A DNA stretch of 64,000 nt from Gavia stellata (Eukaryota; Chordata; Aves; Gaviiformes; Gaviidae). Location of the stretch: the NCBI RefSeq assembly GCF_030936135.1, contig NC_082595.1, positions 19,915,930 to 19,979,929 of the forward strand, written 5' to 3'. Of this stretch, positions 7,645 to 53,789 are shown piece after piece (position 1 is the stretch's first letter; each line of letters opens with the position of its first letter). The notes beneath the pieces were generated by a model. That model made no database searches. It was not told the origin of the DNA and saw only the letters and a list, made by a program, of their open reading frames with translations. Made by a program: the position numbers and the translations under genes.

Positions 7645-7760
7645 TCCCAAAATAAGGGCAGGTACCCTGGGTCAAACCAGAGGCCAGTCTGGCTCAAAAG
7701 CTTGTCTCCCTCAGAGGGCAAAAGCAGATGCCAAGAAAGGGTAAGAGTGACACAGGCTTA
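7645..7760 (+). repeat. Degraded ancient interspersed repeat fragment (SINE/CR1-tail-like)
   Basis: The phrases GGGTCAAACCAGAGGCC and CAAAAGCAGATGCC resemble a dispersed sauropsid repeat carrying 'gtcagaccaaaggtccatct' and 'caaaagcagatgcc' motifs. The assignment is from memory of such repeats. The copy is diverged and I cannot name the family securely. Confidence 0.4.
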
Positions 7761-20055: not shown

Positions 20056-20231
20056 TTAGTACCCACACGTTAGTAAATACTATAGCCCTAAAGGGAGCTA
20101 CACATTGTATTATGGCTCTAAATGGAGTGTGAACTAGCCCCGTTCGCTAGATCCATCACTTGTCCCCACGCTGCATCCTGATCCAGACAAAAACCCTCTC
20201 TGCTGGCAGTCACCGCTTATGGGTGTAAATT

Positions 20232-20292
20232 TTTATATATATATATATATGGGTGCATATATACGGGGGTGTGTATATACGTGTATATATAA
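20232..20292. repeat. TA-rich microsatellite
   Basis: This is an interrupted (TA)n tract with TATATATA runs broken by GGGTGCATA and CGTG units, lying just 3' of the CpG island. It is a simple repeat only. Confidence 0.85.
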
Positions 20293-21479: not shown

Positions 21480-21527
21480 CTCTCCTCTCCCTCTCCCTCT
21501 CCCTCTCCCTCTCCCTTCCCTCCTTCC
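21480..21527. repeat. (CTCTCC)n / (CTCCCT)n pyrimidine microsatellite
   Basis: Tandem hexamers of CTCTCC with one or two variants make one strand almost pure pyrimidine. It has no coding role. Confidence 0.85.
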
Positions 21528-24250: not shown

Positions 24251-24263
24251 GGGGGGGGGGGGG
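24251..24263. repeat. Homopolymer G13
   Basis: This is a run of 13 G residues. It is a likely sequencing-error or length-polymorphism site, and could form a G-rich structure. Confidence 0.9.
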
Positions 24264-33146: not shown

Positions 33147-34369
33147 TCATTCCTTCTTCCCAAAGAACTTCTTGAAGACGGATTTGTTCTTGGGGCGAGG
33201 GGGGCCTGGAGTCTTCTCCCCCAGCGTGTCCCGCGGGCTCCCAGGCTGTGCCACAAAGGAGTGGCAGCGTGCTCGGGGCACAGCCGGTGCTTGCTCCCCG
33301 ATGTACAGCGTGACGGAGTAGCTGCTCCCGGCCTCCACTGGCTCCTTGGGCACAGCCACCGGGGTGATCTTCTGGTAGGTGGCTGCAAGATGGAGCAGTT
33401 ACTGGGGAGGGCAGGGTGCCAGCAGGAGCTGCCAGCCCTCCCCGAGTGGGGGCTGCAGCCCAGGGCACAGGGATGTGGGACAGGGTGGGTGCTAGAGCAG
33501 CATGGCACCTGCCCTCAGGTGTCTGTGGGGACAAAGGCAGTAGTGCCACCTCCTGGCAGTGACAGTGAAACCAGGGCTGTACCTGAGGTGAAGGAGTAGG
33601 ACCTCCTCTTGTTGGCCACCAGCCCGTAGTCTTCTTGGCAGCTGTTGTCCCACAGCCCAGGGGACCCCCTAGGTGACCACTGCTGCTCCCTGTGCCCGGC
33701 CCCATGAGCATCCTCTGAGGCAGAATGGAGACACATCACAAGGCAAGGCCACCACGAGACACCCCTGTGTCAGCCCCAAAGAGGACCGGGAAATATGCGA
33801 TCGTCCCAGTATTACAGGAAGTAAAGGAAGGTAAGTGGTCCTTCCCCCAACCCCAGTCCCAGGCATGGGCCCTGGAACTCCTGATCCAGACACCACCGAG
33901 TTCAAGACTGACCGACAACCTTCAGCTTCCCTCAGTCAGCTCCCTTGCACCTCTCTGGGCTGGGGAGAGGAGTCGGGGGACAGCAGGAGCCCAGCCAGGC
34001 AGGAAAGTCACCTGTTGCTGCCACAGCCCCGTTGGCTGGGCCATCCTGGCTGCCCAGAGGCCACTGCGGCCGTGCCTTTGAGTGGGGTAGCACCACGATC
34101 TCCTGGCTCTTGGTGGTCGCAACCTGATGATGTCCCTGCAGGTGGGAGCTCCCAGGGCTCGGGACCTTGCTGAAACTGGAAAGTAGCAGAGATACAGTGA
34201 ACCAGACTGGCCCACCGATGCCCTGCTAGAGCAGCACACACCGGCAAGCATGGGAGACAGTTGTACCAACGCGACACGGTTGGCCGGCTCCTGGCTACTC
34301 ACCCCCCAGCACTGCCGGTGCCCTCGACACATTGTGCCGCTGCCTGGAAGTAATCCACTTCAGGGAAAC
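33147..34369 (-). other. Spectrin-like gene, exons 30-33: C-terminal tail (residues 1922-2120)
   Basis: Exons are 34303-34369, 34012-34175, 33583-33714 and 33147-33382. The tail is largely unstructured (FPEVDYFQAAAQ, an SQEIVVLPHSK segment, NKRRSYSFTS, then SYSVTLYIGEQ). It ends in a Lys/Phe-rich motif, SVFKKFFGKKE, comparable to the short basic end of long beta-spectrin isoforms. Joining phases are 1-2, 2-1, 1-1 and 1-stop, and the frame ends exactly on the TGA/TAA/TAG-type stop. Confidence 0.8.
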
Positions 34370-37300
34370 CTGGGGGCACAGCAAACATCCCGCTGGGTGC
34401 TCTAAGTGCACAGGACTGTCCCATGGAGCCCGCCCCAGCTCTGGCTGGCTGAGCTGCCTAGATGCCCGTGCTGCAGGGCTGGCCCCTCCAACCTCCTGCT
34501 GTAGCACCTGCTCTTGGTCCTGCCAACCAGCCTAGGATTTCACGGCAGGGCCTGAGCCCCCTCGGGTATGGGTACAGCAGCAGGAAGACCTCAGTATTAC
34601 AGATCTCCTTGCCTGGAGGACTGGCAAGGGGTTTCCAGGCCTCGCAGAGGACATGGAGGAAGACTGAGGCGCAATTATAATTTTCCTGACACTGGCTTTT
34701 TGCTGCTGAGGCTCCACTGACGTCAGTCGTGCTATTCCTGATTTATAACTGTGTATGTGGTGTGAAAACAAAGTCTCCAAATCCTGCCTGGAAGAGAACT
34801 GCTGTTCCCGAGGCAGGTTAGGAGGATGCATAAATCAGAGACAACGCCGTGCTGCTTCTCTTCTGACACACCCCCCCCCCCGCCATGTATCAGAGGGCTC
34901 GATGGGGGCTGCACACCCATAGTAACTGCATACAGCTGGGCCCCCACTCTGCCAGCAAGGGCTGCTCACCTGAGTTTTGCTGCAGCTTGGAGACCCATTC
35001 GTTCATGAGGGGCTGGGAGGGGGCCCTCAGGAGGTACTCAGAGCCATCCCGCAGCCTGTGGGGGGGGAGAACAAGTCAGCGATGAGAGATGTGGGGTGCA
35101 GATACCACAGCCCCTGCCAGCCTGGGAAAGAAGGGAAGCAGGTGAGAAAGAAAGAAGGAAATCCTCCTCTAAGCACCAGACCAAGCTGGCCCTGGCTGGG
35201 GGTGTTGGTGTGTGTCTGTCCCAGCAGAGACATTAGGCAGGGCTGTGGCTATGAGACCCCGGCTGCCCTGGGCTGGGGTGACTCACTGAAGCCTGAAGCA
35301 GTTGGTCTTCTTGGTGTACTCAGCGTCCGGGGTGCAGACCGCCCCAGAGAGGTTCAGGGGAAGGGCCACCACGGAGCTCTGCAGCACAGGAAACAGCAAG
35401 AGCAACAGCGGGATTGGCAGGCTTTCCCTTCCCTGGCCGCAGGAGTGAGGGTGCCCCACTACCTGCCCCCCACCCCACTGCCAGCCCGTTCCCATGTCAC
35501 CCCGGTCTCCCCCACCGCACCTTGAGGCTGTCCCTGCGGTCCTGGTAGAAGCACAGCGTCTGCCTCATCAGCACGGCATGGAAGAGGCCCCAGGCCCGGC
35601 AGTTGGCCTGCGGGACACGAGCAGGGGACAGCTGTGATGCCAACATATTCAGGAGAAGACAGGCAGCCCCTGCCACTCAAAATGCCCCCCAGCCCCGGTG
35701 GGCTCTGCCCTCCCAGCATGGCCAGCAGCACTGCCATGGTAGTGCCAGGAGCATCCCTGGCTTCACTGCTGCCCCAAAACCTGGACGCCCCCCGCCATGT
35801 CCCAGCACACCAGTCCCGAAGGAGCCCCACAGCCCCACAGCCATGTACCTTCCTCCCTCCTGACTGCAACACGTGCTTCCTTTCCAGCGTCCCCTCCATC
35901 ATCTGAAACTCCATTTTACCGGGAGGGCCCTGCAAAGGGACAAGGGGTGAGCAAAGCAGCGCTGTGGCCGGCGGTGCCAGCTCAGGCCCCACGGAACACG
36001 GGATCTGTCTGACCCATCCCTGGCGGGCAATGCCAAGGTGGGAATGGGACAACAGGAGCAATTTTCTGGCCGGGGCAGGGGCTGGGCTGTTTGTAGGCTT
36101 TTGGGGTGAAGTGCTGCCTTGCTAAGGCTGAGGGCTGGCAGGGGAGTGCATGCTGCACAGACCCACAAATTCAGCACCTATCTCTTCCTCACCCCGCCAG
36201 CTGGAGCAAAGGGGCCACTGGAGTTGGGGAGTCCCCAGACATAGGTCACGTTTGCTGGAGCAGGTAACCCAGCTGCTGCCTGGGGTGTCCCCCAACCACC
36301 TGCCTGACCCTGAGGGAAAGCCCCCAGCCCACGGCTCTCACCTTGCTGCCCTCTCTCTCCTCTTCCCCATGCCTCCACCGATCCCAGGCGCCGGGGCTGT
36401 CCAAGGGGGCTGCAGACACCAGCTCCTCTGCGTGGGGGCACACCCTGTGCCTGCTGGGACTGTCACTGCCGCTGTGCCCTGTGCCGGGGCTCTTCTCTCC
36501 CAACGGGCTGTGGAGGAGCCGGGCGGAGGTGGGAAGGGTGAACTTGGCCACTAGCACGTTGTTGGCCGACGAGAGGATGAGGGGCCCGCTGGCGGTGGCA
36601 TCGGGGCTGGGCAGGCTGCCTGCTCCACTCCCCGGCCGGTGGCAGGCACGGCTGCCTGCCGACGGGCTGGGTGCCTGCCGCTCACCCGCCCCGTTCCAGA
36701 TGGCCTGCAGCTCCTCCTCCTCTTCCTCAAACTGCCCGTGGGCAGGGTGGCAAACCTCCCTGGCACCCGACACGGCGCTGGGGGGCTGTGGAGACCCCAG
36801 TGCCCACTCGAAGACAGAGAGCTGGGTGGGGGCGGCAGGGGAAGCCAGGGACTCTCCGGGCTGGCCGCTGCCAGCTGGCCGCTGTGCACGGGCAGTACCA
36901 GGGATGGTTCCTGCTCTGCCTGGGATGCTGGCAGGGGACGGCCCAAGCTCCAGCCGAGCGGCTTCACGATGCCTGGCCCTGCCAGTGGCACTGGGGCTGC
37001 CTTCCTGGCCCAGCCGGGCAGCCAGCTTGTCCCCCTCCCGGCTGACCCACTTGTGCAGCCCACCTATGCGGGACGGCCGGTTTGGCCTGAAGTCCAGGAT
37101 GTCTTCACTGGCACTGCCGGGGCACCGTGGGCTCCAGCGCGCCTCTTCAGCACTGTGTGCCCTTTGCTGTCTGTAGCTGGGGTTGAAGCTCACCTCCTCG
37201 AACCATGTTCCTCGCTCGCTCTTGGGGGATGTCCCCAGCCCCTTGCCGGGCCCCTGGGGACTATGCCCATCCACACCTACCTCCTCCTGCCATCCAGCCC

Positions 37301-40300
37301 TATGCATGCCTGTGGGGTCCCATGGCCTCAGCCCCCCACCCTGCCGCTGTTCCTGCCCCTCCACCTCCTCCTGCTGTACCATGGACCCTTGGTGGCAGCC
37401 CAGGACCACCCTGTCCTGGGGCAGCTCCAGGCTCAGCATGGAGCCCAGGGAAAGGTGGGGGCACGTGGTTTTCGGGTCAGGGAGGTGGGGGTTCCGGGGG
37501 GCAGCCCCACATTCGGCATCGATGTCCCGCACCAGGGGGTTCCTGACGTAGAGCAGCAGCTCCCCGAGCGGGGGTCCGGCGGCAGCCGCCCCCAGCCCAC
37601 CCTTCCTCCAGCCGCACTTCTGAGGCCATGTGTTGCTGGGGCCATGGCACTCCTCAGGTGCAGGCTGCAGGGAGCTGGCGCCCATGATGCCCTGCAGTGT
37701 CAGCAGCTGGGCCTGCTCGGCCCTCGCCCGCTCCCGCCGCTGCAGGCTGTTGAAGAGGGAGCCGGCCCCAGCCTTAGGGAGCGTGTGGGAGGTGGCCGGC
37801 GTCCCGCTGCTGGATACTGGAGGGCTGCCCATGGCAGCAGGTGGTCGTTTCGTGCTGGAGGTTTTCCCAGACTCCACCTGCACCTGGGGACACAGAGAAG
37901 GAGAGAGGGGTGACCCCCATGGCCGGAGCCTCCACCACCCCGCACCGACTGTCCCCTCTCCATGGTGTGCCTGGGCAAGCAAGGAGGCGGTGGGGGCAGG
38001 CAGCTGAAAACCCTTGCCAGCAGCACATACAATCTGGGAGCGGCAGGGCTTCACGCCAGCCCCCTGATGGCTGCTCCCATCTCGGCACAGACAGGGAAGA
38101 GGCAGGCAGGGGAATGCCTGCCCATGATGGAGTCCCCCAGGTGTGGTGCAGTGGGGGCTGCCTGTGCAATACGGCTCTCCCCTGGCACCGCTGCCCTCCA
38201 AGCCACCACTTTTGGGTGGCTATGGAGACTGCAGTCACTGCTGCCTGTCCCTGCTACCCCTGCATGCCCCCAGGCAGCAGAATGGGCAAATGGAAGGGCA
38301 GGGGTTGAGCACAGCCCCTTCCCCACAGAAACCCTCTCCAGCCCAGCTGCAGCCCCTCTCCTGGGTTTCCACAGCTGCAAGGATGAAAGCGAAGGGCTTT
38401 GCCTGCAGGAGCTGGGGCAGTGTCCCCCTGTACCCCTTAGGCCGGAGGGTGCCCGTTACAAAAACCCTCCTGGCAGCGGGGCAGCCCCTCGCCCTACCTC
38501 GATGCCCTCTGGCCTCCTGCCCTCTCCCTCCGGCTACCCACCCTGACTGGGCAGGGGGCCCAGCGGAGGCTGCCCCTGGGGCTCCTCACACACAGCCCTT
38601 CACACGGGCTCCGGAGTGACAAACGGATGCAAGCAAAATAACGGGCTCCCAGCCCAGAGTTACAAGCCATGCAACCCGGAGCGAGCCCCCTCCCCAAAAC
38701 ATGCACCATTGCACAGCCCCATCCACCCTTGTCCCTTTCACTTCGCTGCACAAGGGACTCCTGCTGCCTCCCAGCAGTGGGGTGGAGAGGCTCTCCCGCT
38801 GGCTGCCAGCCTGCCCTGCCTCCCGTGGCCACCAAAACCACTTACCTGGGGGGCCAAACTGCAGCCAGCGCCATCCAACTCCCCTCCTCGCATGCGCCAG
38901 CACCCACACTCTGGTGCCCATGGCACTGGGATAGTTTCCCCTCTCCCAAGGGACCACCACTGGCAGGGCACAGCGGCACAGCCAGAACGGTCGGTAGCAG
39001 GCAGGTTCACACCATGCAGCCACTCCGCCCGGCATGCGGCCTCCCCAGGGGACGTTACCTCTTCCACTGGCTGGCGAGGCGGCTTTCTCTTTCGCTTTAA
39101 ACTACCCCAAGTGTTTCCTAAAAGCCCCTGGCAGCGCTTCCAAAAGGTTTTACAGCCTGAGGGTTTAGTGGTGGGGAGCTGAGCAGAGGGGGGAAAGAGA
39201 GACAGAGAGAGTTGAGGGCAGAGTGGGTGAGGAGCCGCAGCAGGAGAGCGCAGGCAAAGGGGGTGGTGCAAGCTGGTCCTCAGCCCTCGGGCATCGCTCA
39301 GCATCAGCACAGCCAAAGGTCCCTCTCCTGAGACTGATACTAGCTCCAACAGCTCGCTTGGAAACAGCCTGGTGTGGTCCCAGCACAGGGCCTACCCCAC
39401 AGACCTCAAAGCCTCCCCCTCTGCATGGCTGCACAGCTCCAGGGAGCCGTGGCTGCATGGTGGTGGCCGGCCCTGGGACAGGCACTGGGTGCTCACCCAT
39501 GGTTCTACCGAAGCCACCTACCGTCCCCCACGTACCATCCGCAGCGCCTCCTCCCCCAGCTGCTCGCTGCTGGCCACCGGCTGTGCCTTCTTCTTCTCGC
39601 CCTTCTTGCCGATGCTGAGGATGAGGTTGACCGTCCCCCCCAGCCCGCCAGAGCCCCGCGGCGGCAGCAGCAGCGTGGAGGTCTCGGCAGGATCCCAGAT
39701 GACAGCCTCCTCAGGGGGTCCTGCACCGTGGGGTGTTGAGCTGCCCCAGCTCTGCTCCACTCCCGATGGGGCATCTGAGATGGGTGATGCCAGTGGGGAG
39801 ATGGCCATTCCTGCTGGTAGCCACGGCTCCGATCTTTGAACGGGCTTGAGGAGGGAGCAGGGCGTGAACTCCACTGGGCTGTGGATGCTCTCCAGCTGGG
39901 GCCAAGCACAAGGGGCGTGCTGCTCCTGGGGAGCAAGGCAAGAGAGAGAACGTGGAGGAAGGGCTGCTGGGGCCAGGCACTTGCTCAGGAAAATCTTCCC
40001 TTTGCCCTGCTTGAACCCCAGGAAGTCCCAGAGGTATTGGCACACATCCCCCCCCCCCCACTTCTGCACCACCCACTCCATCCGGTGCCTTTGCTACCCT
40101 CAGCCTTGAGGCCGGCCCTGCTCCCCGACAGTCTCAGCATGGCTGGGTACTCACTTGGCCAGTGGGGGACAAGCCCAAGGGGCTCTCCAGGTCCCTTCTG
40201 TCCTCCTGCTTGCTCCCCAGGTCCCGCTGGTGCCTCTGTGCTCGCCAGCGTACCAGCACCCAGCCCAGCATGCTCTGCAGCTCCTCCAAGCGCTCCTTTA

Positions 40301-43300
40301 TCTGAGGGGAGGAGAGATGCTGGGCAGCCTGCAAGGACCCCTGGCCCAGGGACACTGGCCCTACCAGGACACCTCACTACGGAACATTGTAGGAGGTTTT
40401 TTGGACCAGGATACAGTCAGTCACATCACCTCAGGTCTCAGCATCCATTGCCCTGAGGATGCATGGCTGGCCCCGTACCACTCACTGGGGCTCTGCACCT
40501 GCACCTTGCTCTCTCTGCTAGGGACTGTCCCCAGAGGATTTGGGGGGCTGCTGAGGCTTTCCCTGACCCCATTTCCCCTGTCCTTACTGTCGCACTCAAG
40601 TAATGCTCCTCAGACACCAGCTGCTGCCCCAACACCGCCAGTGCTTCAAACTCCTTGAGCTTCCCTTCGATCCTCCTCTCCAGCTCCTCACACGGAGTCT
40701 CCGGGAGGCTGTGGCTGCTTGGGCTTTCAGAGAAGATCTGAGCCCGTGTGTCCTCCGTCCAGGAGCTGTGGGCACATGAAAGATGGGCTGAGGGGGCTGA
40801 GGAATGACCCAGCCCCTCCTCAGTCCTGCAGGCCCCAGGGAAGCCATTCCCATGCTCAGGGATGACTGGAAGCAGCTCACTGGGGTAGCGGCAAGTCTGG
40901 TGAGGCAGGGCAAGATGCCGTGGGACTGCCCCATGCCAGGCAGCCCTGGCATAGCCCTTTGTTTCAGGCTCCCCATGGTCTTGCCTGGCTGCAGCTCTGG
41001 CACTGCCCACGTACTCGCCAGCAGCCCGTGTTCTGGCAATGCCATGCTCTCACCAGCTCCCCCCCAACCACTGCAGAGGCAACCCCGACGGCTCATTGCC
41101 GCTTACATCATGGCTAAGTAATCCTTGAAGAAGTGCCGCAGCCGGCTGGCCTGCTGCACACGGGCCCGGGTCTCTCGCAGCAGCTTCTGCAGCCCTGTCC
41201 AGGCCCACAGTGTCCCCTGCACCTCCTGGCTGACGGGGCACAGCTGAGCAGGGCAGAGCTCTTGCAAGCGGGCAGCTGCCCTCTCCAGCTCCTCCAGCTG
41301 CCCCTGCAGGCTCTCTGACACCTCATGCTGAAGATCACAAGGCAGAAAAGGTTCAGGATGCATCCAAACCCTCTGCGCCCAGGCTGGACTCCCCTGCGTT
41401 CTGGGATGCAGGGATGGAGGGGAGGATGGAGGGGAGGATGGAAGGGAGGATGGAGGGGAGGATGGAGGGGAGGATGGAGGGGAGGATGGAGGGGAGGATG
41501 GAGGGGAGGATGGAGGGGAGGATGGAGGGGAGGACGCAGGCACAGGGCCTGCAGGGAGTGGACAAAGCCACCCTTGGTAGGGAGGACAGGCAGAGCGGAG
41601 GGCTGCCTGGTTTCCCCAGTCTGCTCACGTGAGTCACCTCCCCGCTGGCAGGAAGATGAGTGAGGTGCTGGCAGCTGGGCGCTGGCACACAGGAGCTGAT
41701 GCAAGCTCTCTCCCCTCGCCTCGCCCGCACTGGCGGAGGGGAGTGGAGCGGGGCAGGGCTTGGCTCCGCTGGAAAATTCCAGCCTGGCCCACAGCGGTGT
41801 GCCAAGGCTTACAACACCTGGGCCCCCGGGGGCCAGCGCCTCCTCGGGACGGCCCCAGCCAGCCTCAACATCTCCCTGCCACGGGCACGACTGGCTACAG
41901 TGCTCCCTGGGTCTCACCTCCATCTCCTGCTGCCGGCTCAGCAAGCCCTGCAGCCCCTGGAGGTCCTTCTCGCTCTTCACTGTGGTGAAGCTGCTCTCTG
42001 CTTGGGTAGTGTCACGAGCCAGTGCCTCGGCTCTGCATCGAAGGGCCTCCAGGCGCAGGGGTACCTCCGCCACCTGGATGGGAGGGGGAGGGGTTGGGGG
42101 GTGAAGAGATGAGCCCCGGTGGGGGACCCCCTGTGCCACCACTCGCCACGAGGCCCCAGCCCACCCCAGCCTGGGGGCACCCTGCCATGCACCTGCAAAA
42201 GGGCAGGGAGCACCAGCCACAGGAGGGACAGGGATACCAGCTTCACACAGAGTGGTCCCCATGTATCCCAACGCCCTTGTGTCCCACTGGGACCAGCCAA
42301 GGTGCATGCCGTGTCCCAAACAGCCAGAATGTCCAGCTGCAGGTGGAAAACCTGGCTGCATCCCTAGACCCCCTGCCTCCATCCCCTACCAGGCGCTCCA
42401 GGCTCTCTCTCTCCGCTGCCACTTCCATGACCCGTTCCCGCTCCTTCGCGGCATCGTTCAGCATCTCCACGGCCTCCTGCAGCTCTCCCAAGGGGCGGCT
42501 CATGTCCTCGCTGCTCAGTGGCTGCCCAGCCTGGGCAGAGAGCAGGGGAAAAGACCCCTGCGAGCTGCAACGCCCACTCCCTGGCTGAAGCCAACAGAAA
42601 CACTGGGTGTGAGGGAGATGGGAGGAAACTTCCCAGGCAGCTGGGCCAGAGTGGGGGCACCCCTGGGGTCTCCCCTGCCAGCCACAGACCAACCCTTAGG
42701 CTGGTCCCAGTTGCTGGGTGATCCCACGGGATGCCTGGCCCTGCTGCTCACCGCTGCAGGTCCCTGCTGGCTCTGCGCTTCCTCCTCTTGAAGGTCCTGC
42801 AGGAACTCAGACAGCACCAGGGAGTCACGCAGGTCTGCCGCCCGGCGCCGCAGGGCTGCCTGCACGCGTGCCAACCTGTGGGGACAGGTGCTGATCACAG
42901 GTGCTGGCACCCTCCACACCTCCTCGGGGCGAGCATCCTCCTCCCCGCACCTCCTTGGGTGCCTCCTCGCACCTCCACAGGATGAGCATCCTCCTCCCTG
43001 CCCACCCCGGGGACCAGAGAGAAGGAACCTTCCCCTGGGACTCACTTCTCCTCCACCATCTCCACCTTCCTCTGCATCTTCCTTGCACCTTCATGCTCGG
43101 CGGGTGGCTTGCCCGCCGCCTCCTTCTGCAGCGCCTGGAGCTTGAGGCCACACAGCAGGAGCTGCCTCTCCAGCTGGCCTGTGTCCTCCAGGTCCCGACG
43201 CAGCTCTGCCGGACTTCTCATGGTGGCTGGCTCTGAGAGTGACCCAGCCACAGCTTGCAGCCACCGCTCAGCACGGTCCAGCTCGCCCACCAGCCTCAGT

Positions 43301-46300
43301 GCCTGCGGGAAGAGTAGGGACCCCATCAGCCTGGCCCTGAGCCACCCAGGGGCAGCAGGAGCCATGCTGCCACCCCACTGTGGGTACCCAGGGCACCAGC
43401 AGCTTGGGCAGCACAGCTGGAGCAGCACATGGGCTGTGAAGCCAGCTGGAGATGTCACTGCCAGCACTGCAGCTCCTGTCCTTGTGGGCACAAACCTCGC
43501 TTGCTGATCCCCAGCAAGCTGCTGCGATTGGGGCATGCCCCTGTGCCCACCCCAGCCCTGTGCCTGCAGGTACCTTATCAATTTCCCGCAGCACGGCGCC
43601 GTTCTCCTGGTGCTTCCTCTGCAGGTCCTCCCACAGCTCTCCCAGCTCCTGCAGCATGGCCTCCACCTGCGGGGTCCCCGGGGGCCCCCCCGGCCCCGGC
43701 CCCTCCTGGGAGGCAGGGAGGACAGTTAGGACAGGCCCTGCCTGGTGTACCCTCCCCAACCCACACCAGAGGGGGCTCACCAGGAGCACAGCCCTGGCAC
43801 TGGAGCTGGGGTCCAGGGGCTCCTGCTGCATCCGTGCTGCCTCCAGGCTCTCCACGTCCCCCACCGGACACGGGGGGACTCCAGGACCCGTGACCTCCTT
43901 GTGCGGGGACACAGTTTGCTGAGGAGCAGGGAGACATGGTGCATTAGTGCCCAGACCAGGGATGGGTATGAGTGCACAAGCATGCATGCCCACGAGCAGC
44001 GGGACAGGGTCGAGGAAGGGGTCTCCTTCGACACTGGCTCCCCTGGCCAGGCTGGGAGCAAAGGGGGCTCTTGGGGAGACATTACTGCATTCACTGCCTG
44101 ACAGACATCCTGCACCCGGGGCTCCGGCTGCTGCATCCCCCACTCAGCCTCCGCCTCTCTCCTCTTCCTGCAGAGAGGGGGACAGTCAGAACTGCAAGGT
44201 CCCCCCTTTGCACAGGGGACCCCCATCCCCATCTCCTCTGACTCCATCCCACTCCCCACAGCCACATCCATGAGCTGGTACCTTTTGCTGTCGCTGCCAT
44301 GAGGGGGCTGTCCCACCGCTGGGGAGCCAGGGCTGCTCTCCTCCCCTCTCTTGTGCTCCGCCATCTTTCCCGGCATGTCCTTCAGCGCCTACAGCACAAA
44401 GGCTCCCATTCCTCCTTTGCCAGCCCAAAGCATGCAACTCTTTGCCCTGGGCCTGGCACTTATCTCCTCCCATAAGCAGTGGGGCCAGGTCACAGGTGTG
44501 CTCAGCTTGGGCTTTGCCCAAAACCCAAGCACCTTTCCCACAAGCTCCCTTGTCTTCCCAAGGCAGAGGCGCTGGAGATGCCAGGAGGAAGGCAGACGCC
44601 TACGCTCACCGTGCTCCCGAGGCCTCTTGTCCGTTTGTCTCCTGCTTCCTTCTCCACAGCCCTATGGCCGCTATCGTCTCCTCGGGGCTCAGCACTCAGA
44701 GCTGCAGCTTCACCCACCGGCGAGCTGCTTGCCACTGGCGGAGCCTTCTCCGTCCTGGGAAAGAGGAGACAGAGACAGCCTGACAGGGGCTAAACCAGGT
44801 CTTTCCCCAAGGCTCTGGCTCCAGCACTGGGGGGGTCAGGGTTGGGGCCCTGGGGCTCCTGCTGGGCTGTGCCCTACCTCAGCACCTGCTGGAGCTGCAC
44901 CCAGCTCTCCTTGACGTCTCGGTGCTTGGGGGCAACTCGGTCTGCCAGGCTGGGCTGCAGGCTGAGGAGCTGGGACACGGTCACATCCAGCATCTGGAGG
45001 AGAGAGAGCAGCCGGGGAGTGATGACAGGGCTGGCAAGGGACAAGCCACGGCGGCCATGGTGCGAGTGCGTGATGGCAACCCACCACCAGCCCTGTGGGA
45101 GCAGGAGAGGTGGTGTGTGCTAAGCCCGGTCTGCTGCTGCTGCCAGGGAGGGTCCCCTGTCCATCACACAGCCCCGGCCACCCCACGTGGCCATGAGGTG
45201 CCCACCAAACCCCCAGCCCTGCCGGTGCCAGCGCTGACCCGAGAAGGCACACAAGCTCCCCTCTGCCGGGATGCTCCCGAGGGCTCAGAGGATGAGGCAG
45301 AGCCTTGCACTTACCATCACCTGGCTGGCTATGTCCCTGACGTCCTGATCCCGGCCTGGGTCCACCTGCCCTGGCTTCCCCACACTGCAGACACTCCTCT
45401 GCTGTAAGAAGAAGTTGCAGCCAGTGGTGGGAGGAGGACAGGGCCCTGCCCTCGGCTCCAGCAGAAAGGGACACTGCAAAGCTGAGCTTGCTGCTCTGGC
45501 TCCCCATCTTGCATCAGGCTCTGTTCCCAGCTCTCTCCCCGAGCCCCAGGCTGAGGGTGCTGGGACCACAGCAGCCCCCATGCAGGGGACGAGAGCGAGG
45601 TGCTGCCCGCCCAGTTTCACTCTAGCTGTGCAACAGCCCCGCACCAGGCTGACCCTGGCTCCAGTGTGGTACCTTGGTGTGGATAGCCCCGAGCAGGGTA
45701 TCCGCTTGCTGGAGGAAGGCAGCCACCTCCAGGGCCAGCTGCAGAGCTTCGTGGTGCTCCTTCAGGGTCCCCTGCAGCCGCAGCCACCTACAGGGGTGGA
45801 AGGGGAGATGTGAAGGGCAGCCTGTTCCCCCCTGGGGAGCTGTGCAGAAGTTGGGCAAGGAGAGGGAGGCAGGAGGTTCGGGGGTCCTGCTTCCCAGCCC
45901 ATCATCTCCCTGCCCCCAGCTCGGCCCTGCTTGGCCCATGTGTCCTCCACTCACGTTTTGTTGAGGTGCTTGCGCCGGGCTGAGATACTCCTGCTCTCAC
46001 TTTTGCCTTGTTTCTCCAGCTTCTGGGCCAGACTGTTCAGCTCCTCGTGCAGACTCTGGAACTGCTGCTCCTCCTGGACCGAGCAGAGAGACAGACATCA
46101 GCATCCTCCGGCCGTCCCTCCTGCCCCCCTCTCAGGGACCTGTGCCATGCCGCAGCCTCGTGGGGTTCAGGGTCCCTGGCATGCTGGTGGCCCTCCAGCA
46201 GCCTCTCACCTGCTTCAAGTCAAGGATGCGGCGGGTGAGCTGGATCTTGTCTGAGTTTTCCTGCAGGAGGGCTGCCAGGGAGGGCTTCTCCTCCTGGGCC

Positions 46301-49300
46301 AGGGGAGAGTATGAGAAGGCAAGGGGACAGCCAGGCTGTCCCCCTCCCCAGACTGCGCTCCCCACACCCCACACCTTGTGCCTGATCCATGCCTCCAGCT
46401 GCTCGGCCTTCCTGTTGAAGTCCTGCAGGCTCCGCAGCCCCCCCAGGGCTTTGCTCTGGCTGGCAGCCGTGTGCTTCAGGAGCTGCCACTGGTCCTGCAG
46501 GGCCAGCAGCTGCCTCCGCACCCCCTCGGCGCTGGGGCTCGCCCGCCACATCAGATGCTCGCCCATCTGTGGGGCCAAGAGACCTGCTCAGTGTCAGGGC
46601 CTCCAAGGAACCCCCCCACTGCGGAGAGCCCAGGGTCACGGGTGCTGTGGGGAATGGGAGCCGTGCTGCCACCCAGCCTCACCTGGTTGAGCTTTATCAG
46701 CGTGTTCTCAAAATCCTTCATGTCCCGTTGCAGGGTCTGAGCCACCTCCTCCCAGTCCTGGAGGTCGCAGCCATCCTTCAGGTCCCGCAGCTTGCCTCGC
46801 ACCCAGCCCTCCGCCTGCAAGGTGGCAAGAGCCACATGGACAGGCACCTCTGCCAGAGCCCTGAGGACGTGCCGTTGGCGACCCAAGCCCAAATCCCACC
46901 AAAGCCACAACAGGGACCGAAGGGCACCCTTTCGGCTGACAACCCCTTTGCTCCAAGCGAGAACAGGTCAGCAAAGGGGCTCAGGATGGCAACAGCGGTG
47001 ATGGGGGCAGGAAGGTGAGCGGCATCTCACGTCTTTCCAGCATCTGCCTGCCCCAGCCCAGCAGGAAAAGCCGGGGCCCCCCAGGCAGGTCAGACTGGGG
47101 GTCTCCGCGCAGGACATCCCTGCACGAAGCATCTCTTCTCCCTGCGCTCAGCTCCCCTGTGCAAGCACCCATGCACTCTCTCCAGCATGGCGTGAAGTAG
47201 CCCTCACCCCCCATCCCCATTCCCACACTGCTGAGGAGGGACAGGGGCTGGGAGGAGAAGGAGGAGGATGGGGGAACGGGAGGAGCGTGTGCACGTGGGG
47301 AGGAAGCAGGGCCCTGGTGCGGGCTGACCCCCTCTCCCTGGGGCCGACAGCCAGGGAGAGGCGGCCAAACATGATCTCATGCCACAACCATGGCTTCGCT
47401 CGGGGCCGGGAGTTCAGCCCTTCCCACCGCGCACCCCACCCCGCAGCTCACATGAAAGGCTGCCGGTGGCACTGCCGCCCCACTCCCCACACAGCCCCTT
47501 GGGCAGACGCCCTGGCTGGCCTCACCTGCAGCATCTCCCGGTTGAACTGGGCTACCAGAGGGCTTGGGTCAAGGAGGGGGGACGCTCCTGCGCCACTTCG
47601 CCCACCACATCTCAGTGCCGCTGTGGGCTCCTTGCCCTTCGGGCTCTCTTTTCGGGGTGACGCCAATGGGGGTCCTGCCAGCTGGGGTGGGCAGAGGTGG
47701 AGGGGGTCAGCATGCTGCCTGAGGCAGCCCTCCCCATGACCTCCCAGGAACGTTTTGGAAACCCAAATAAAGGATGTCAGCCTGCCTCATCCCTGATTCC
47801 ACTGTTTCACTGACATATTTGGGGTTCCCTCCCAGCACCCCACCCTGAGGCACAGCTCCCCTCTACCAAAGCTGCACCAGTGGCTTTTGCAGCCTCGACA
47901 GGGGGTTGCCAGGCTGTCCCTCAGCCCTGGGTCACTCCAGGCTGGCGGGCTGGCACCCAGCGCCCGGACTGGTTCCCACGCCTACTTTGGAAGCAGATGC
48001 AGCGCTTGCTGCCCCTCCAGCCTGAGGCTGCACATCCCTGCAAGGAGCATTCGTGTCTGTGGCATCCATTTGGTGTCACCCTGGGGGACACTGCCAAGGG
48101 ATGGGAAGGGGGGAGCCACAGGGCAGGGTCCCCAATGAGCTCAGCCCGCCCCTCCTTCAGAGGGGCCCCTCCTTTCTCCCACCCAGAGACCCCCATCCCA
48201 AGGGAGCAGCGGCGAGGGTCAGGAAGCGCAGCATCTCCTCCGGGGCTGAGCCTCGTGGGCAGTCGGTGCTGACGAAACCCTGTCAGGGCTCCAGTTCTGC
48301 CAGGGGTGACAGCGAACGTCAGCCAGTGAAAGCGCTGGCCCCCCTCTAAGCTCAGCCCCGGGGCCCAGCTGCACACAGCCCAGGGGACAGCACAGCCACC
48401 TGGGCACTCGCTTCCCACCCCGCTGCCTGGGGACGGGACCTGACTGCACACTAACCAGGGCTCACTGCCTCCTCTAACCAGGCAGAAACTGCTCCCAGGG
48501 CCAGCCAGGGCCAGCCCTCCCTCCCCAAGGGAGATGGGTGTGAGCTGCCCTGGGGGGTCCCAGCCGCCCCTGAGCCCGCCAGGGTGCAATCTCCTGGGAG
48601 CCTGTGGAGCAGTGTAGTTTGGGCAACTGTTTCAGGCTCTCTAAGCACTCTGGCATGTGCTGTCCTGCTGACGGCATGGGAGTCACTTTTCAAAGCCTTT
48701 CTGCCTAACCACAAGAACTAGAGAAATCCTCTGTATTTCTTTTTTTTTTTTTTTTTTTAAATAGCAACAGATTCTCAGGCCCTCCTGCGACTCCAGGCTC
48801 TTCAGTCTCTTGACACGGCCAGGGCTGGAGGAGCCCGTAATCCATCCCCCTTGGAAGTGATAAAACCCCTGGGTGCTGGCCTGGGGGCTATCCCCTTGCA
48901 CCATCATGCCCAGCTTGTCTCCTCGCTCACTGAAAGTGGCGAGGCTCCATCCACACCTGCGCCGGGGGAAGACCACCAGTGGCCACCCTCACTTACCCAG
49001 CCACAAGCTGCGCAACTGGGTCAGACCCTCTAAACGGCAAGGGCAGGGGGACGTACCGCATAGAAGGGGGAACCTCTGTCCACCTGAGAGCAGAAACCAC
49101 CAGCCCGGGGACTCCTGGCCTCCTGCTGCTCATCCTCCGCATCCACGTCCTTCCTGAGGAAGACCTAGAGACGGGAAGGCGCAGCAGTGAGCCTGGAAGT
49201 GCTTGACCATCCCAGCAGCTGAGGGGAGGGAGGAGCATGTGCCTGCCTCCCCCTGCCCTGGGCCAGAGGAGGCTGCTGGCAGTACCCAGACACTGCTTGG

Positions 49301-52300
49301 CCAAGCTCTTGCCCGTCCCTCCTTAGGCATCCAGGCCAGGATCCTCCAGGCAGCATCCGCAGCTCCTGCCACGCATTCAGCATGTGGCAAGAGCTCCTAA
49401 GCTTGCTTTGCTCAGCACCTTCTCCATTTTAGCTCTCACACACCCTTTTCCCCCTTGAATTGACTCCAAAGCCAGCAGAAACCCATTCAGTGGTCACCAC
49501 TGGCCCCTGGTCGTCTAAGGATACTTGGGGTCAGACCACCCTGCCCGTCTCCAGGACAGCAGGGCAGAGGCGCAAGAACACAGGACATCAACTCCACTGG
49601 CATGAACCTGAATCCTCTCAGCTGCCAATCCCTGACCTCAGCCTGGCCAGGAGGCAAGAGTTAAGGGGGCGGCTGGCTCGCAAGGAAGGGCTCCCACAGG
49701 ACCAGGGTGAGTGTGGGAGCAGGAGAGGCAGGAGGAAGGAAGGCCTCCTCAGCCAGGCGCAGAGAGGAGGTCCAGGATGAACTCTGCATTACCTTATCCT
49801 TAATGGAGCCCAGCCCCAGGAAGAGAGGTGCGTGGGATTGCTTGGATCGTACACAAGGGCAGTCACTCTCACCCTCTACGGATGAATCTTTTCTTGAGCT
49901 GTCGGATATAGCACGCCCATTTAGGGACCTCCTTCCACCCCCTCCCTGGGGCCACCTTGCTGTCTCTGTAACAGCCATCCAAGCATGCACAGGGCAGCAC
50001 GAGGTGGTGGGCAACGTGTGCTGCCCCAACACCCCCTCCCTGGTCTCCTCTGAGGCCACAGCACACAGGGCAGTGGGTCAGCCAGAGCTGGACCCAGCCC
50101 ACCACTGGGCAGACCACTCCAGACTGGGGACAGTGTCCAAGGGGAACCAACTGAGGTGAAGCAGGACTCACTCCCTGCCCAGAAAGCAGCTTCCTATTGT
50201 CTCTGCAGGACTGAAGAAGAGTCCCAATGTGGATGTCATCCCCCACCACTAAAGCTGCTGCCACCAGAAAGGCTCAGAGCCTCACAAACAGCCCAAGAAC
50301 CCTATAACTCCTGGGAGACCAGCACCACCAGACCTTTCCAGGGGCCTGCGGAACCCGGCTGGTGGCCACAGAGGACAGACCACCGCCCCACGCCACAGCA
50401 TTCCATCCCAAGCAGGAAGAGCAGGCAGGGACCGAGACTGAGTCATGGCCCGGCAGGCACAGCGAGAGCTCAGCGCATCTGGCAGGAGGGTGCCAGAAGG
50501 AGAAGGCACCCCCCTGCTCGACCGCAGGGCTGAGAGGTTTGGCTGCCCATTTAGGGAATGGCGGGGAGCTAAACGTGAAGTGCTCACAGGGCATAAGACC
50601 CCAGGAAGCCCCTCTTCTAGGCAGCAGCGTTCCACGCTGGCTGCAGCACGCAAACCCCCCTGCCAGGGCTTGTCTCCTGCCGTGGGAGACAAGCCTGCAG
50701 GTGACACGGGAGCTTTATTTAAAGTCCCCGTCTCACGATCCATCAGCCACAGGAAAACAGGGCTGCCGGCACAAGGATGACTTCATCCTTCCCGCAGAGC
50801 TGCTCCACCGGGACTGCCCCTCCTCCCCAGTCCCTCCAGCCGGAGCCGGGTCCTTGCTCCGGCAAAACAACAAACTCTCGCAGCAACTGAAGGCTGGGAG
50901 AAGGAGCGGTGCCTTCCTCGGCATCCCTGAGGTGCCGTGCTAACTGATCGCCAGCAGGACCCCAGGCTTCACGACATGAGCAACGCTACATGTGAAACGA
51001 GTGCAGCGGCCTCAGTTGCCTCCTCTGTGAATGCTTCTTTCCCTTGTTAAAAGCAAAATTAACACGGCACACGTGCTCACCGCATTTCCATAGAAGGGTA
51101 GGTGCCAATGACTTCCCACGAGCAAGATGAGCGGGGTCAGACCCTTCTGGGCTGCACTGTGCTCATCCCAGAGGAGTCCCCCATTCCTACAGGGCAGGAG
51201 CAAGGGGCAGAGCCAGGGGCCAGGGGGCACGCTTGGGAAAGCCCTAATGTGCCCTGGCTGGGGGACAGTGTTCCCTTCTCTCCTCTGGCTGCCGTCCTGC
51301 TTAACGCACGCTTTTCCCTGTGCCCTGGCTCTCCCTCTCCCTCCTAAAGCTCCATCTTGCAGCCTGCCCCCCCTTCCAGCTCCACCTCCCCAGGCCGGAC
51401 AGGCAGGAGGGGCCGATCCTGGCAGCCTCCAGGGAGTCCCGCACCACACTACCATGCCAAGCATGTGTCCCTACCTTATATGAAAGAGGGGAGCCCTTGT
51501 GCCGATGCCCCTTGGGCTGCGCAGACTCCGGCTGCCCAGCGAGGAGCTGCCTGCGTGCCGGAGGAAGCGGCAGCTCTTGTGAGGCTGTGCCTGGCCTTTA
51601 TTGGCAATAAAGACGAGGGTTTTGGCAGTGGGCTGTGCGGCTCTCCCTAGCGCTATCCCGCCGGGAAACCAGCTGTTGCAGGTCAGGGTTAAATCCCAAG
51701 GAGTTCCTGCCTGCTCTTGCCAGCGATGGCGAGGTCTCTGAACTGCCTTCCACCCCATCCCAGCCACACAGGGGGTCTCCTGGCTCCAGCACTGATGGAG
51801 GATTCGGACCTCAGCGACTGCTAGCACTGAGATTTGGAGGGTGGGGTGCCGGGAGCCCTGGGTCCTACTTTAGCCTTGTCCCAGCTCTGCCTGGCTGTGT
51901 GGCCCTTCATGAGTCACTTCCCTTCTCCCAGCCTCTGTTTCCCCTCTGGTAAACGGGAGAGTGAGTTCCCAGATCCCCGCACACAACTGCATCATCATGG
52001 GCATCCCAAGAGCTGAGCCCTCCATAGCTGGGCTCTGAGGCAGAGCTTTTCTGGGTCATCTTAGCCCCAGGGAAAGCTCTCTCCAGTTCGCCCGCAAAGA
52101 CCTCCTGCCTTCCAGCCTGATGGTACAGAGAAGTGCGTGGGGAGGGAGGCAGGAGGAAAAGCAACTACACCAGGAGCCCTGTAGCGAGTGCTGCCTGGAG
52201 GCTGTGGGGTGAAGGCATCAGGAATCCCCAGCCTGGGCGCAGCCTCCCCAGGACCTACCCGTCCCATGGCAGCCAGGAACGGGGAACCGCAAGGAAGCCA

Positions 52301-52766
52301 GGGAGACAGCGGGGTGCAGGGTACGGGGAGCGCTTACCTTGAACTGAGCTTTCCCTGTCCTGCTGTTGTTGTTGTTGTGGTTCCTCTCGCCGCCGGTCCG
52401 GGCAGGGTCCCCAGGTCCCCCTGCGTCCCCTGCACCAGCCTCCCCATGCCAGTTGGACAGCGTGATCTTCTTAATGGAGCGGGCGAGGGAGTTGCGGTTC
52501 AGCCGCTCCTCGTCGGTCCCCGCTTCCTCGCCGGGGCTGGGGCTGTGGGGGCGGCCCTCGGGGGCGGCGGGGCTGGCCCGGGTTTGGGCCAGGTAGAGGG
52601 AGATGCGCTCGTTGAGGCTGCGGCGGAGGCCGCGGTGGTTGTCCAGAGCCGAGGCGAGGGCGATGCCGGGGCAGGCGTCCCCGGGGAAGTCGGCGGCACA
52701 CTTGGGCAGCGAGAGCTTGGTGCTGATGGTGAAGGGCTGGACCTTCCTCGCCGTGCTGCCCGACAT
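33147..52766 (-). CDS. Large beta-spectrin-related protein: spectrin-like repeats plus PH domain, no CH domains (about 2,120 aa)
   Basis: Thirty-three coding exons with GT-AG borders join in one frame from the ATG at 52,764-52,766 to the stop at 33,147. They total 6,363 nt, or 2,120 residues; frame and phase agree at every join. Layout by residue: a unique N-terminus (1-231), helical spectrin-like block 1 (about 222-513), a low-complexity linker (514-624), helical block 2 (about 625-1122), a long disordered region (1123-1806), a PH domain (1807-1921), and a tail ending NKSVFKKFFGKKE. The PH domain and basic tail are of beta-spectrin type, which suggests a peripheral membrane or cortical cytoskeleton role (inferred). 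Unlike beta-spectrins it starts without paired CH actin-binding domains and has fewer repeats. I do not recognise the gene. The ATG has A at -3, and no in-frame ATG lies upstream in the open frame. Introns are short, mostly under 600 bp apart from a few longer ones toward the 5' end. Confidence 0.9.
34970..35929 (-). other. Spectrin-like gene, exons 26-29: beta-spectrin-type PH domain (residues 1807-1921)
   Basis: Exons are 35849-35929, 35521-35607, 35287-35378 and 34970-35055. The order of elements matches the pleckstrin-homology domain of beta-spectrins: MEGTLERKHVLQSGGRK (first strands and basic loop), AVLMRQTLCFYQDRRDS, LPLNLSGAVCTPD, KKTNCFRLQLRDGSEYLL, and the closing helix MNEWVSKLQ with the invariant PH tryptophan. 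Beta-spectrin PH domains bind phosphoinositides; whether this one does is inferred from the basic first loop. Confidence 0.88.
36342..39925 (-). other. Spectrin-like gene, exons 23-25: long disordered region including a 1.54-kb exon (residues 1123-1806)
   Basis: Exons are 39536-39925, 39059-39178 and 36342-37883. Exon 23 ends in a basic segment (SIGKKGEKKKAQP). Exon 24 encodes a Lys/Arg-rich 40-residue cassette (TFWKRCQGLLGNTWGSLKRK) of phase 0-0, so it could be skipped without a frameshift. Exon 25 (514 codons) is mostly Pro, Ser, Gly and Ala, but contains islands that look constrained: SEDILDFRPNRPSRIGGLHKW, an acidic run followed by LQAIWNG, and GPLILSSANNVLVAKFTLP. Confidence 0.8.
40155..43918 (-). 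other. Spectrin-like gene, exons 14-22: helical block 2 (residues 625-1122)
   Basis: Exons are 43781-43918, 43574-43705, 43046-43302, 42752-42875, 42390-42530, 41918-42073, 41107-41327, 40588-40765 and 40155-40301. Long amphipathic helices are rich in Leu, Glu, Gln and Arg. Repeat-like signatures are ELWEDLQRKH, AERWLQAVAG, LWAWTGLQKLL and the pair EELQSMLGWVLVRWRAQ. Length fits about four spectrin-like repeats. The hydrophobic, tryptophan-rich end (SMLGWVLVRW) is unusual for a repeat helix and may be an interface. Confidence 0.8.
41413..41532. repeat. 12-bp minisatellite, 10 copies, in intron 19 of the spectrin-like gene
   Basis: The unit GATGGAGGGGAG repeats ten times over exactly 120 bp with one substitution (copy 3). 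On the transcribed strand it reads CTCCCCTCCATC, a pyrimidine tract that starts 86 bp upstream of the exon 20 acceptor. It is simple sequence and is not translated in the gene's mRNA. Confidence 0.95.
44086..44754 (-). other. Spectrin-like gene, exons 11-13: low-complexity linker (residues 514-624)
   Basis: Exons are 44610-44754, 44282-44388 and 44086-44167. They encode Ala-, Ser-, Gly- and Lys-rich sequence without a visible fold. Exon 13 has two usable donors in the same phase, GTAATG at 44,085 and GTGAAT at 44,091, so its end is uncertain by six nucleotides (two codons). Confidence 0.65.
44878..46814 (-). other. Spectrin-like gene, exons 4-10: helical block 1 (residues 232-513)
   Basis: Exons are 46683-46814, 46375-46566, 46210-46293, 45955-46073, 45673-45787, 45315-45401 and 44878-44993. 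The translation is almost entirely helical with heptad-like spacing. It carries the tryptophans typical of helix A in spectrin repeats (AEGWVRGKL, QDQWQLLK, LEAWIRHK, TWLRLQ, ESWVQLQQ). Length and period fit about three repeats of roughly 100 residues. Segments such as DMKDFENTLIKLNQ and TRRILDLKQ have the look of a strongly conserved vertebrate protein. Confidence 0.8.
48740..48760. repeat. Poly(T) run in intron 2 of the spectrin-like gene
   Basis: About 20 T residues end in AAATAG. It could be the A-tail of an old retroposed element on the minus strand, but I cannot make out the body of one. Confidence 0.8.
50664..50697. repeat. Perfect 11-bp inverted repeat (hairpin) in intron 1 of the spectrin-like gene
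   Basis: GGCTTGTCTCC and its exact reverse complement GGAGACAAGCC are separated by seven bases. The stem extends two more pairs past a one-base bulge. It is too short for a standard microRNA precursor and could be chance or a protein-binding palindrome. Confidence 0.6.
51597..51611. terminator. Back-to-back poly(A) signals on both strands
   Basis: AATAAA is present on the minus strand (51,597-51,602) and on the plus strand (51,606-51,611), three bases apart, in intron 1 of the spectrin-like gene. On the minus strand this is the first AATAAA I see downstream of the MYMX stop, so it could end a MYMX transcript or a short product of the spectrin-like gene. Use is unproven. Confidence 0.4.
51860..51965 (+). 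repeat. MIR-like SINE fragment
   Basis: Pieces such as CCAGCTCTGCCTGGCTGTGT, GAGTCACTTCCCTTCTC and CTCTGTTTCCCCTCTGGTAA follow the MIR core and its 3' part in order. It is diverged and lies inside intron 1 of the spectrin-like gene. Confidence 0.65.
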
Positions 52767-53560
52767 CCTCGCCTTCCCCGCCGCCGCCGGCGGGCAGAGG
52801 GGCAGCCGTGGGGCCCGGCCCGGGCACCGCGGGGCGAAGCGGCAGCGCGGGGCCCCCGCCGCCCGGGAGCGCCGGTGATGGAGACTGCCCGGGCGGCGCC
52901 GGCTCCTTCCCCGGGACGGGCGGCGGCGGCGGCGGCGGGGCCGCCCCTTCCCGCGGGGGCACTCAGCGGGGCGGCCCCGCGGCGGGGGGCAGCGGGGCGG
53001 GGGGCGGCCCGGCTCCCATGGCCGCAGCGGCAAGGCGCGGGCAGCCGTCCGGCCTCGGCTGCCTGGGCGGACCCTCCCGCCCCCGCCGGGGCGCGTCCCC
53101 TCCCCTGCCCGGGTCCCTCCTCCCGCGGCGGGCAGGGGAGGCGGGGGAGAGTCGCCGCGCCCTGCCCTGCCCTGCCCTGCCCCGGCCGGCTTCAGTCGTC
53201 CACCTTCTTGCGCAGGTTGAGGAGGCAGAGCAGGCAGGTGAGCAGGGCCTGGCGGCTCTCCCGGGAGCGCAGCCGGCGCCCCAGGCGGCGGAGCGGCGGC
53301 AGGAGGCGCTTGCGGGCCAGCGGCAGCAGGCGGGCGAGCAGGGCGCGCAGCAGCGGGGCGGCCAGTGGCGGGGCGGGCATGCTGCCCCCCGAGCCTGCGG
53401 GCGCACCGTCAGCCCCCTCCGCCCCCCCAGGCGCCTTGGCGGATCGGGGGGTGCCCAGGAGCTCCTCGCGCTTCGGAGCTTCCGACCCGAGCGGGATGCG
53501 GGAGCCCAAGCGTGGTGCGCGGGGGTCCGCACCCCTCTGGGAGCGGGGGGCTGCCTGGGG
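52340..53560. promoter_or_regulatory. CpG island over MYMX and exon 1 of the spectrin-like gene
   Basis: This is a very CpG-dense stretch with GGGGCGG-type Sp1 motifs. It contains the whole MYMX ORF and the first coding exon of the spectrin-like gene. The part between the two frames (52,767-53,191) is the likely promoter or leader of the spectrin-like gene. It includes a (CCTGC)n run at about 53,159-53,181. No TATA box is visible next to the spectrin-like ATG. Confidence 0.7.
53192..53380 (-). CDS. MYMX: Myomixer (myomerger/minion), muscle cell fusion microprotein, 62 aa
   Basis: The product is a small single-pass membrane protein that drives myoblast fusion together with myomaker (MYMK), acting at fusion-pore formation. 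Visible features are a hydrophobic segment at residues 5-21, an Arg/Lys-rich amphipathic stretch (23-43: ARKRLLPPLRRLGRRLRSR), and the family signature AxLyCxL at residues 45-51 (ALLTCLL). The layout matches mammalian MYMX, and so does the position between CAPN11 and SLC29A1. It is shorter than the 84-residue human protein because most of the polar C-terminal tail is missing: the frame stops after LNLRKKVDD. The ATG has A at -3. The frame stays open upstream but has no other ATG. It sits in a CpG island with E-boxes upstream. Confidence 0.87.
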   Translation of the reverse strand: MPAPPLAAPLLRALLARLLPLARKRLLPPLRRLGRRLRSRESRQALLTCLLCLLNLRKKVDD

Positions 53561-53704
53561 GAGGCTCGGAGGAGAAGCAGTGGAGGGGACCGCTCTCCCC
53601 CCCACCTCTTCCCCTGGTTACTCTTACCCTCCTTGGGATCCTTCCTGCTCTGGGACACTGCTCAGCCCTTTCTCCTAGAGGAGCCGGTACTGCTCAGCTC
53701 CCCC

Positions 53705-53789
53705 CAGGTGGACCTGCCACCACCCCAAATGGCAGGAACAGCTCCCGAGCAAGGGACAACAACAAAAAAAAACAGCTGCCCATTTAAAT
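53705..53789 (-). promoter_or_regulatory. Candidate MYMX promoter: two E-boxes and a TATA-like element
   Basis: Read toward MYMX there is ATTTAAAT (53,782-53,789), then CAGCTG (53,773-53,778) and CACCTG (53,705-53,710). The E-boxes lie about 325 and 393 bp upstream of the ATG. CAGCTG and CACCTG are the classic binding sites of MyoD-family factors, which are known to activate MYMX in mammals. Position and identity as the promoter are inferred. Confidence 0.5.

Follow-up and report, generated by a model that had tools for sequence, protein, structure and literature searches.

A putative, highly divergent beta-spectrin-group gene between an SLC29A1-like gene and myomixer in Gavia stellata

Which gene occupies the minus strand from 52766 to 33147 in a 64,000-nucleotide stretch of Gavia stellata DNA (assembly GCF_030936135.1, contig NC_082595.1, positions 19,915,930 to 19,979,929; here called the window), and what kind of protein would it encode? 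A sequence-only reading had proposed a complete 33-exon gene, lying between SLC29A1 and MYMX, that combines spectrin-like repeats with a beta-spectrin-type PH domain and tail. The gene is real. We consider it rather probable, if some way from certain, that it is intact, codes for protein and belongs to the beta-spectrin group as a far-diverged member, one with no actin-binding CH pair, no first repeats and probably no final partial repeat. As a gene, it is supported by its score against 25 controls, 21 stable exons, the guanine-cytosine (GC) content at codon positions, splice dinucleotides and an open linker; its assignment draws on Pfam Spectrin and PH_9 matches, solved beta-spectrin chains, the R14-R15-R16-PH order of matches, the presence of an R-x-W motif and the failure to find CH domains.

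Exons were chained with a purpose-written gene finder that used human codon frequencies, shifted in favour of GC-rich third positions, and splice-site weights; a length prior was present only in its later version. With the prior, the minus strand from 53 to 33 kb yielded one long gene with a score of 349.5 (40 exons, 5034 nucleotides), compared with 28.9 for the opposite strand, a mean of 16.6 and a maximum of 31.6 for 20 dinucleotide shuffles, and 22.9-39.2 for four control stretches in which no gene is known (5000-24690 and 12000-31690, each on both strands), so that none of the 25 controls exceeded 39.2. The start at 52766 and the stop at 33147 were returned in all 16 finder settings, as were 21 exons, which are flanked by AG and GT apart from the outer ends of exon 1 and the last exon. 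These results bear out the ends first proposed and, for the minus strand, an intact gene of many exons. Its exact dimensions are less secure: across the settings the exon number ran from 27 to 59 and the coding sequence from 4326 to 7554 nucleotides, and 33 exons appeared in just two of the 16, with coding sequences of 4674 and 6123 nucleotides; the original 33 exons and 6,363 nucleotides are plausible, not proven. Completeness is uncertain on the 5' side, and the join of exon 1 to the rod is the weakest link of the model. Kept reading frames, which had been offered as proof of a real gene, are weak evidence alone, because the same finder without the length prior assembled a 93-exon open chain on the plus strand. 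The case for the gene rests on coding statistics and homology. Its parts, with the share of settings that returned them, are as follows.

52338..52766, minus strand: first coding exon, 143 codons, beginning MSGSTARKVQPF...; 16/16; GC-rich stretch, donor GT; no Pfam family and no known domain.
49101..49164, minus strand: tentative exon downstream of exon 1 and ahead of the rod; 14/16; log-odds +5.0 over 21 codons; no homology seen.
47526..47681, minus strand: tentative exon directly before the rod, ending ...PLVAQFNREMLQ; a 37-nucleotide version (47562-47526) in 11/16.
44878..46814, minus strand: rod block 1, spectrin repeats; seven exons (46814-46683, 46566-46375, 46293-46210, 46073-45955, 45787-45673, 45401-45315, 44993-44878), each 16/16 with AG/GT ends.
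43781..44754, minus strand: stretch that separates the two rod blocks; its exon 43918-43781 is stable (16/16).
40155..43705, minus strand: rod block 2, its final repeats closest to R15 and R16; eight exons (43705-43574, 43302-43046, 42875-42752, 42530-42390, 42073-41918, one ending at 41107, 40765-40588, 40301-40155), seven of them 16/16.
39536..39925, minus strand: probable linker exon; 11/16, a 79-nucleotide version in the other 5; own frame best, third-position GC 0.78; in Pfam a chance-level match alone (TonB_C, 0.075).
36342..37883, minus strand: proline/glycine-rich linker preceding the PH domain, 514 open codons, in a single long exon or in two or three adjacent ones; no Pfam family.
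34970..35929, minus strand: PH domain; exons 35929-35849, 35607-35521, 35378-35287 and 35055-34970, each 16/16.
35598-35590, minus strand: R-A-W motif of the PH domain, aligned with the R-x-W site of beta-spectrin PH domains.
33147..34612, minus strand: C-terminal tail; tentative exons 34612-34528 (5/16), 34369-34303 (9/16), 34175-34012 (13/16) and 33714-33583 (13/16).
33382-33147, minus strand: last exon with the stop; 16/16; own-frame log-odds +12.0.

Coding statistics were computed over 33 candidate exons picked by hand (2082 codons), a list that is not itself a tested chain. GC at the three codon positions was 0.68, 0.50 and 0.79, a periodicity of coding type, and the exon's own frame scored best in 28 of the 33; the other five were 47699-47526, 44754-44610, 42875-42752, 35929-35849 and 34369-34303. 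At 34175-34012 the own frame was best, yet its log-odds were negative (-3.6). Exon 1 had own-frame log-odds of +32.4 and a third-position GC of 0.89, its runner-up frame (+9.3) being antisense and containing stops. Downstream of it, from 52338 to 46814, no exon reached 16/16, the best being 49164-49101 (14/16), 49029-48997 (11/16) and 47562-47526 (11/16); the acceptor at 47681 scored 3.6 in phase 0, and 47699-47526 had a coding score of -10.4. Uncertain exons also lie between the rod blocks, namely 44388-44282 (14/16) and two with alternative versions, 44754-44718 or -44610 and 44167-44107 or -44095 (6-8/16 for each version). The exon 44754-44610, which belongs to one chain, shows no coding signature (log-odds -10.3, third-position GC 0.56) and is probably wrong. 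The exon ending at 41107 had three starts, found in 5, 4 and 7 of the settings. A tandem array with a unit of about 12 bases (SILP or MEGR, by frame) occupies 41370-41560, between rod exons, and misleads exon finders.

The linker had no in-frame stop, against 1-11 in the other five frames, while its dinucleotide shuffles averaged 8.4 stops and none of 2000 was stop-free. Its log-odds were negative (-12.4) and still the best of six frames, the others being far worse; exon ends within it differed between finder runs. Chance open frames were rejected as an account of the gene on the 25-control scores and these shuffles.

To which family does the gene belong? In Pfam, rod block 1 matched Spectrin at 8e-17 in two stretches and rod block 2 at 2.7e-17 in four, giving six repeat stretches in total (17 were not seen), and the PH block matched PH_9 (8e-14) and PH (1.1e-11). 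Among solved chains the best match of the rod was the beta-spectrin 3edv (8.4e-12, 47.9 bits); all rod queries, whether for structures, Pfam or the repeat-by-repeat comparison below, omitted 44878 to 43705, the stable exon 43918-43781 included. For the PH block the solved structures ranked as beta-II 1btn (7.8e-17), beta-III 1wjm (4.1e-13), Drosophila beta 1dro (3.3e-9) and ARHGAP21 (8.6e-7). The spectrin-like repeats and beta-spectrin-type PH domain of the sequence-only reading were thus recovered, and the gene, judged by its sequence, belongs to the beta-spectrin group. As to the basic C-terminal tail of beta-spectrins, the last residues, KNKSVFKKFFGKKE, resemble the beta-II end FGKKK by eye alone, and the beta-II tail piece found no match in the last exon with phmmer. 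Two other identities were rejected. The best alpha-spectrin chain reached 6.3e-5, below the five best beta chains and above some other beta chains; and Pfam gave no RhoGEF, as a spectrin-repeat RhoGEF would have, over the rod blocks, the linker or the PH block.

To place the gene along a beta-spectrin, a human SPTBN1 (beta-II) sequence, for which matches to solved chains speak, was divided up and run piece by piece with phmmer against 1898 stop-free segments from both strands. The best matches of R14, R15 and R16 and the three best of PH fell inside the gene, all of them on the minus strand and in beta-spectrin order. R14 matched rod block 1 (46046-45957, E 3.4; another at 46425-46357, E 12), R15 rod block 2 (41333-41166, E 3.3), and R16 both 40352-40242 (E 0.18; starting 51 bases before the exon) and 40761-40582 (E 0.93), while the three PH matches were PH exons (E 0.0055, 0.27 and 0.61). 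In the same search CH1, CH2, R1, R2, R17 and the tail had their best matches outside the gene's exons. The best for CH1 and CH2 (E 2.8 and 7.6) lay outside the gene altogether; tblastn gave nothing significant for CH, its best match (E 0.34) being at 21.3 kb on the plus strand, outside the gene; and Pfam found no CH in the 18 longer open frames scanned between 46984 and 52164. R1 was matched best on the opposite strand (E 2.6), and R2 elsewhere (E 5.9), with a second, chance-level match at 46043-45966 (E 9.9) in rod block 1. For R17, neither tblastn nor phmmer listed a match on the minus strand from 40155 to 35929, where a short diverged repeat could be missed. An ordinary full-length beta-spectrin was rejected, CH, R1 and R2 being undetected. 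In the repeat-by-repeat comparison R16 led clearly at the C-terminal end (17.2 against 9.9 bits), and the C-terminal end of the rod is better placed than its start. Taken as a whole, the gene resembles the C-terminal portion of a beta-spectrin, preceded by a new N-terminus and containing a linker of about 514 codons.

Divergence was gauged on the PH domain, with sequences taken from the structure matches, to which two beta-II and four beta-III end residues were added. The window gene shares 37 of 102 residues with beta-II (36.3%), 33.0% with beta-III, 28.2% with Drosophila beta and 30.0% with ARHGAP21; among the references, beta-II is 61.0% identical to beta-III and 41.9% to Drosophila beta. 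A maximum-likelihood tree of five PH sequences grouped beta-II, beta-III and Drosophila beta with a bootstrap of 82 and set the window gene beside the outgroup, both on long branches and hence at long-branch risk; Drosophila beta fell beside beta-III with a bootstrap of 30, a mark of the low signal in the tree.

Several observations weigh against this picture of an intact beta-spectrin relative without a CH pair. Chains from the finder are free of in-frame stops by construction, and a recent pseudogene still free of lesions keeps a small probability. The single-repeat matches are weak (R14 E 3.4, R15 E 3.3, R16 E 0.18). The R14 label in particular is soft, because in full-length tblastn the exons that open the rod aligned best with earlier repeats, at beta-II residues 697-808 (E 0.004) and 907-994 (E 0.013), and because, for the second repeat of block 1, R14 led R7 only narrowly (17.1 against 14.7 bits). 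The R-x-W motif occurs in ARHGAP21 too. A second CH1 match (42877-42779, E 5.9) lay within the rod, and a motif scan found D-L-x-D-G at 46784 within a spectrin repeat; both were taken as chance, and a CH pair that had changed to the same degree as the remaining gene might escape detection.

The gene is one of four recognised in the window, all on the minus strand, the others being:

53192..53380, minus strand: myomixer (MYMX), a separate neighbour gene; 62 amino acids, Pfam MINION 2.5e-17, sequence read.
about 3.96-0.2 kb, minus strand: ENT1/SLC29A1-like gene; first 227 residues, 265 bits against the human ENT1 structure.
63.9-61.2 kb, minus strand: calpain C-terminus; top match a mu-like calpain, calpain-1 second.

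The MINION and ENT1 matches identify the flanks and agree with the location first proposed, between SLC29A1 and MYMX. Human ENT1 was the sole solved chain among the matches listed for the SLC29A1-like gene, and the label SLC29A1 was preferred to SLC29A2 on the grounds of the adjoining myomixer and calpain and of the human map. From 5000 to 31690, which is most of the interval between the SLC29A1-like and spectrin-like genes, neither strand held a gene-like exon chain (four tests, 22.9-39.2), and ARAGORN and Rfam (gathering scores) found no matches over the window. On the same strand, 425 bases (52767-53191) separate the myomixer stop from the start codon of the spectrin-like gene, in DNA that is very GC-rich (0.716 across 52001-54000); a promoter in this interval, with control shared with myomixer, is possible. 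The myomixer frame has 62 codons, compared with 84 in human.

How such a gene arose can be explained in more than one way. One of the vertebrate genes SPTB, SPTBN1, SPTBN2 and SPTBN4 may have given rise to it by duplication, in 2R (an ohnologue) or later, with fast evolution and loss of the 5' half of the copy, an account that we hold to be a serious but tentative possibility. It fits the R14-R16-PH order of matches, the higher PH identity with beta-II (36.3%) than with Drosophila beta (28.2%), and the calpain - spectrin - SLC29A order found here, which would parallel the human 11q13 order CAPN1 - SLC29A2 - SPTBN2. The PH tree speaks against it, in that beta-II, beta-III and Drosophila beta group without the window gene (bootstrap 82, long branches), and so does one vertebrate paralogon: PMC6298421 assigns SPTBN2 and SPTBN4 to two of its four members and puts chicken SPTBN2 and SPTBN4 both on scaffolds. 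SPTB and SPTBN1 may fill the other two members and leave no free slot, which would make the window gene an extra one; a lost fourth 2R copy is disfavoured if the quartet described in part by that source is indeed full. An undescribed family is possible, given that CH and R1-R2 were not found, that R17 was not found with limited sensitivity, and that the PH domain stands far from the vertebrate beta-spectrins compared. The sequence-only reading also raised loss or relocation in mammals, no gene being known between MYMX and SLC29A1 on the human 6p21.1 map. Among the matches listed from open-licence literature, no paper title concerned this gene, which may already have a name in current gene databases. 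A bolder proposal, to which we give rather little credence, is a sixth vertebrate beta-spectrin class that split off before the four classical genes, perhaps before insects and vertebrates parted, a phosphoinositide-anchored scaffold without actin or alpha-spectrin binding, maybe under control shared with myomixer in fusing muscle, and lost in humans.

The gene could also be known already and have moved instead of being lost, in which case its one-to-one human orthologue would bear a name and sit at a different locus. This is unlikely: no human protein is known to combine repeats of beta-spectrin type with a PH domain while having no CH pair, and no solved chain is close, the best being 3edv at 47.9 bits. 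More improbable still is a full beta-spectrin whose CH exons are hidden by divergence in the 5.5 kb that separate exon 1 from the rod; CH-coding exons are short and none of this stretch's exons was stable in 16/16, but CH domains are normally well conserved, the best tblastn (E 0.34) and phmmer (E 2.8 and 7.6) matches all lay outside the gene, and the 18 longer open frames scanned in the 5' region held no CH in Pfam. A pseudogene in decay, or open frames chained by chance, would suit GC-rich DNA, which is rich in such frames, and the 93-exon plus-strand chain of the unpenalised finder; the score of 349.5, where none of 25 controls passed 39.2, the intact splice dinucleotides of the 21 stable exons and the 514 open linker codons make this the least credible explanation, with very little probability left to it.

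For an intact beta-spectrin-group member of this composition, what function might be expected? In beta-spectrins, CH1-CH2 bind actin, R1-R2 pair side to side with alpha-spectrin (nucleation), R14-R15 bind ankyrin and R17 forms the tetramer end. With CH1-CH2 and R1-R2 undetected and R17 probably absent, the protein would not be expected to build the classical actin-spectrin lattice, although it might act beside the lattice or compete with it. The beta-spectrin PH domain is described as binding inositol phosphate between its beta1-beta2 and beta5-beta6 loops (PMC4735990, PMC3344901), the R/K-x-W motif of the beta1-beta2 loop taking part in ligand binding (PMC3344901). The PH domain could hold the protein to phosphoinositide-rich membrane through its own beta1-beta2 R-x-W site, while the rod would bind partners, possibly ankyrin via the R14-R15-like part, and the new N-terminus and long linker might recruit others. 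Most likely the product would be a phosphoinositide-anchored rod unable to hold actin in the classical way, that is, a putative membrane-skeleton adaptor and not an actin crosslinker.

Beta-spectrins are defined by linking actin to membranes, and a gene that kept the membrane and rod end without the actin-binding end would reveal what the C-terminal half does alone. If absent in humans, it would be one more lost cytoskeletal gene, here adjoining a muscle-fusion gene. With SPTBN1 and SPTB (CH-CH, 17 repeats, PH) it has in common spectrin repeats, whose best though weak matches run R14, R15, R16, the beta-spectrin-type PH domain and the R-x-W motif; it differs in having no detectable CH1, CH2, R1, R2 or R17, six Pfam repeat stretches, some 300 additional residues or more that separate the R14-like part from the R15-like one, the linker of about 514 codons, its own N-terminus and a PH domain 36% identical to beta-II. 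TRIO, MCF2 and PLEKHG4 likewise join spectrin-like repeats to a PH domain but carry a DH domain before it, whereas the pieces of the window gene scanned held no RhoGEF and its PH domain is of beta-spectrin type. SPTBN5/beta-heavy is also a diverged beta-spectrin class with a PH domain, set apart, by description and not by sequence, through its CH pair and some 30 repeats. A further parallel in domain content is the short beta-IV spectrin form Sigma6, which similarly dispenses with the actin-binding domain and keeps C-terminal repeats and PH; Sigma6, however, is a form of a full-length gene, whereas the window shows no full-length version of the spectrin-like gene.

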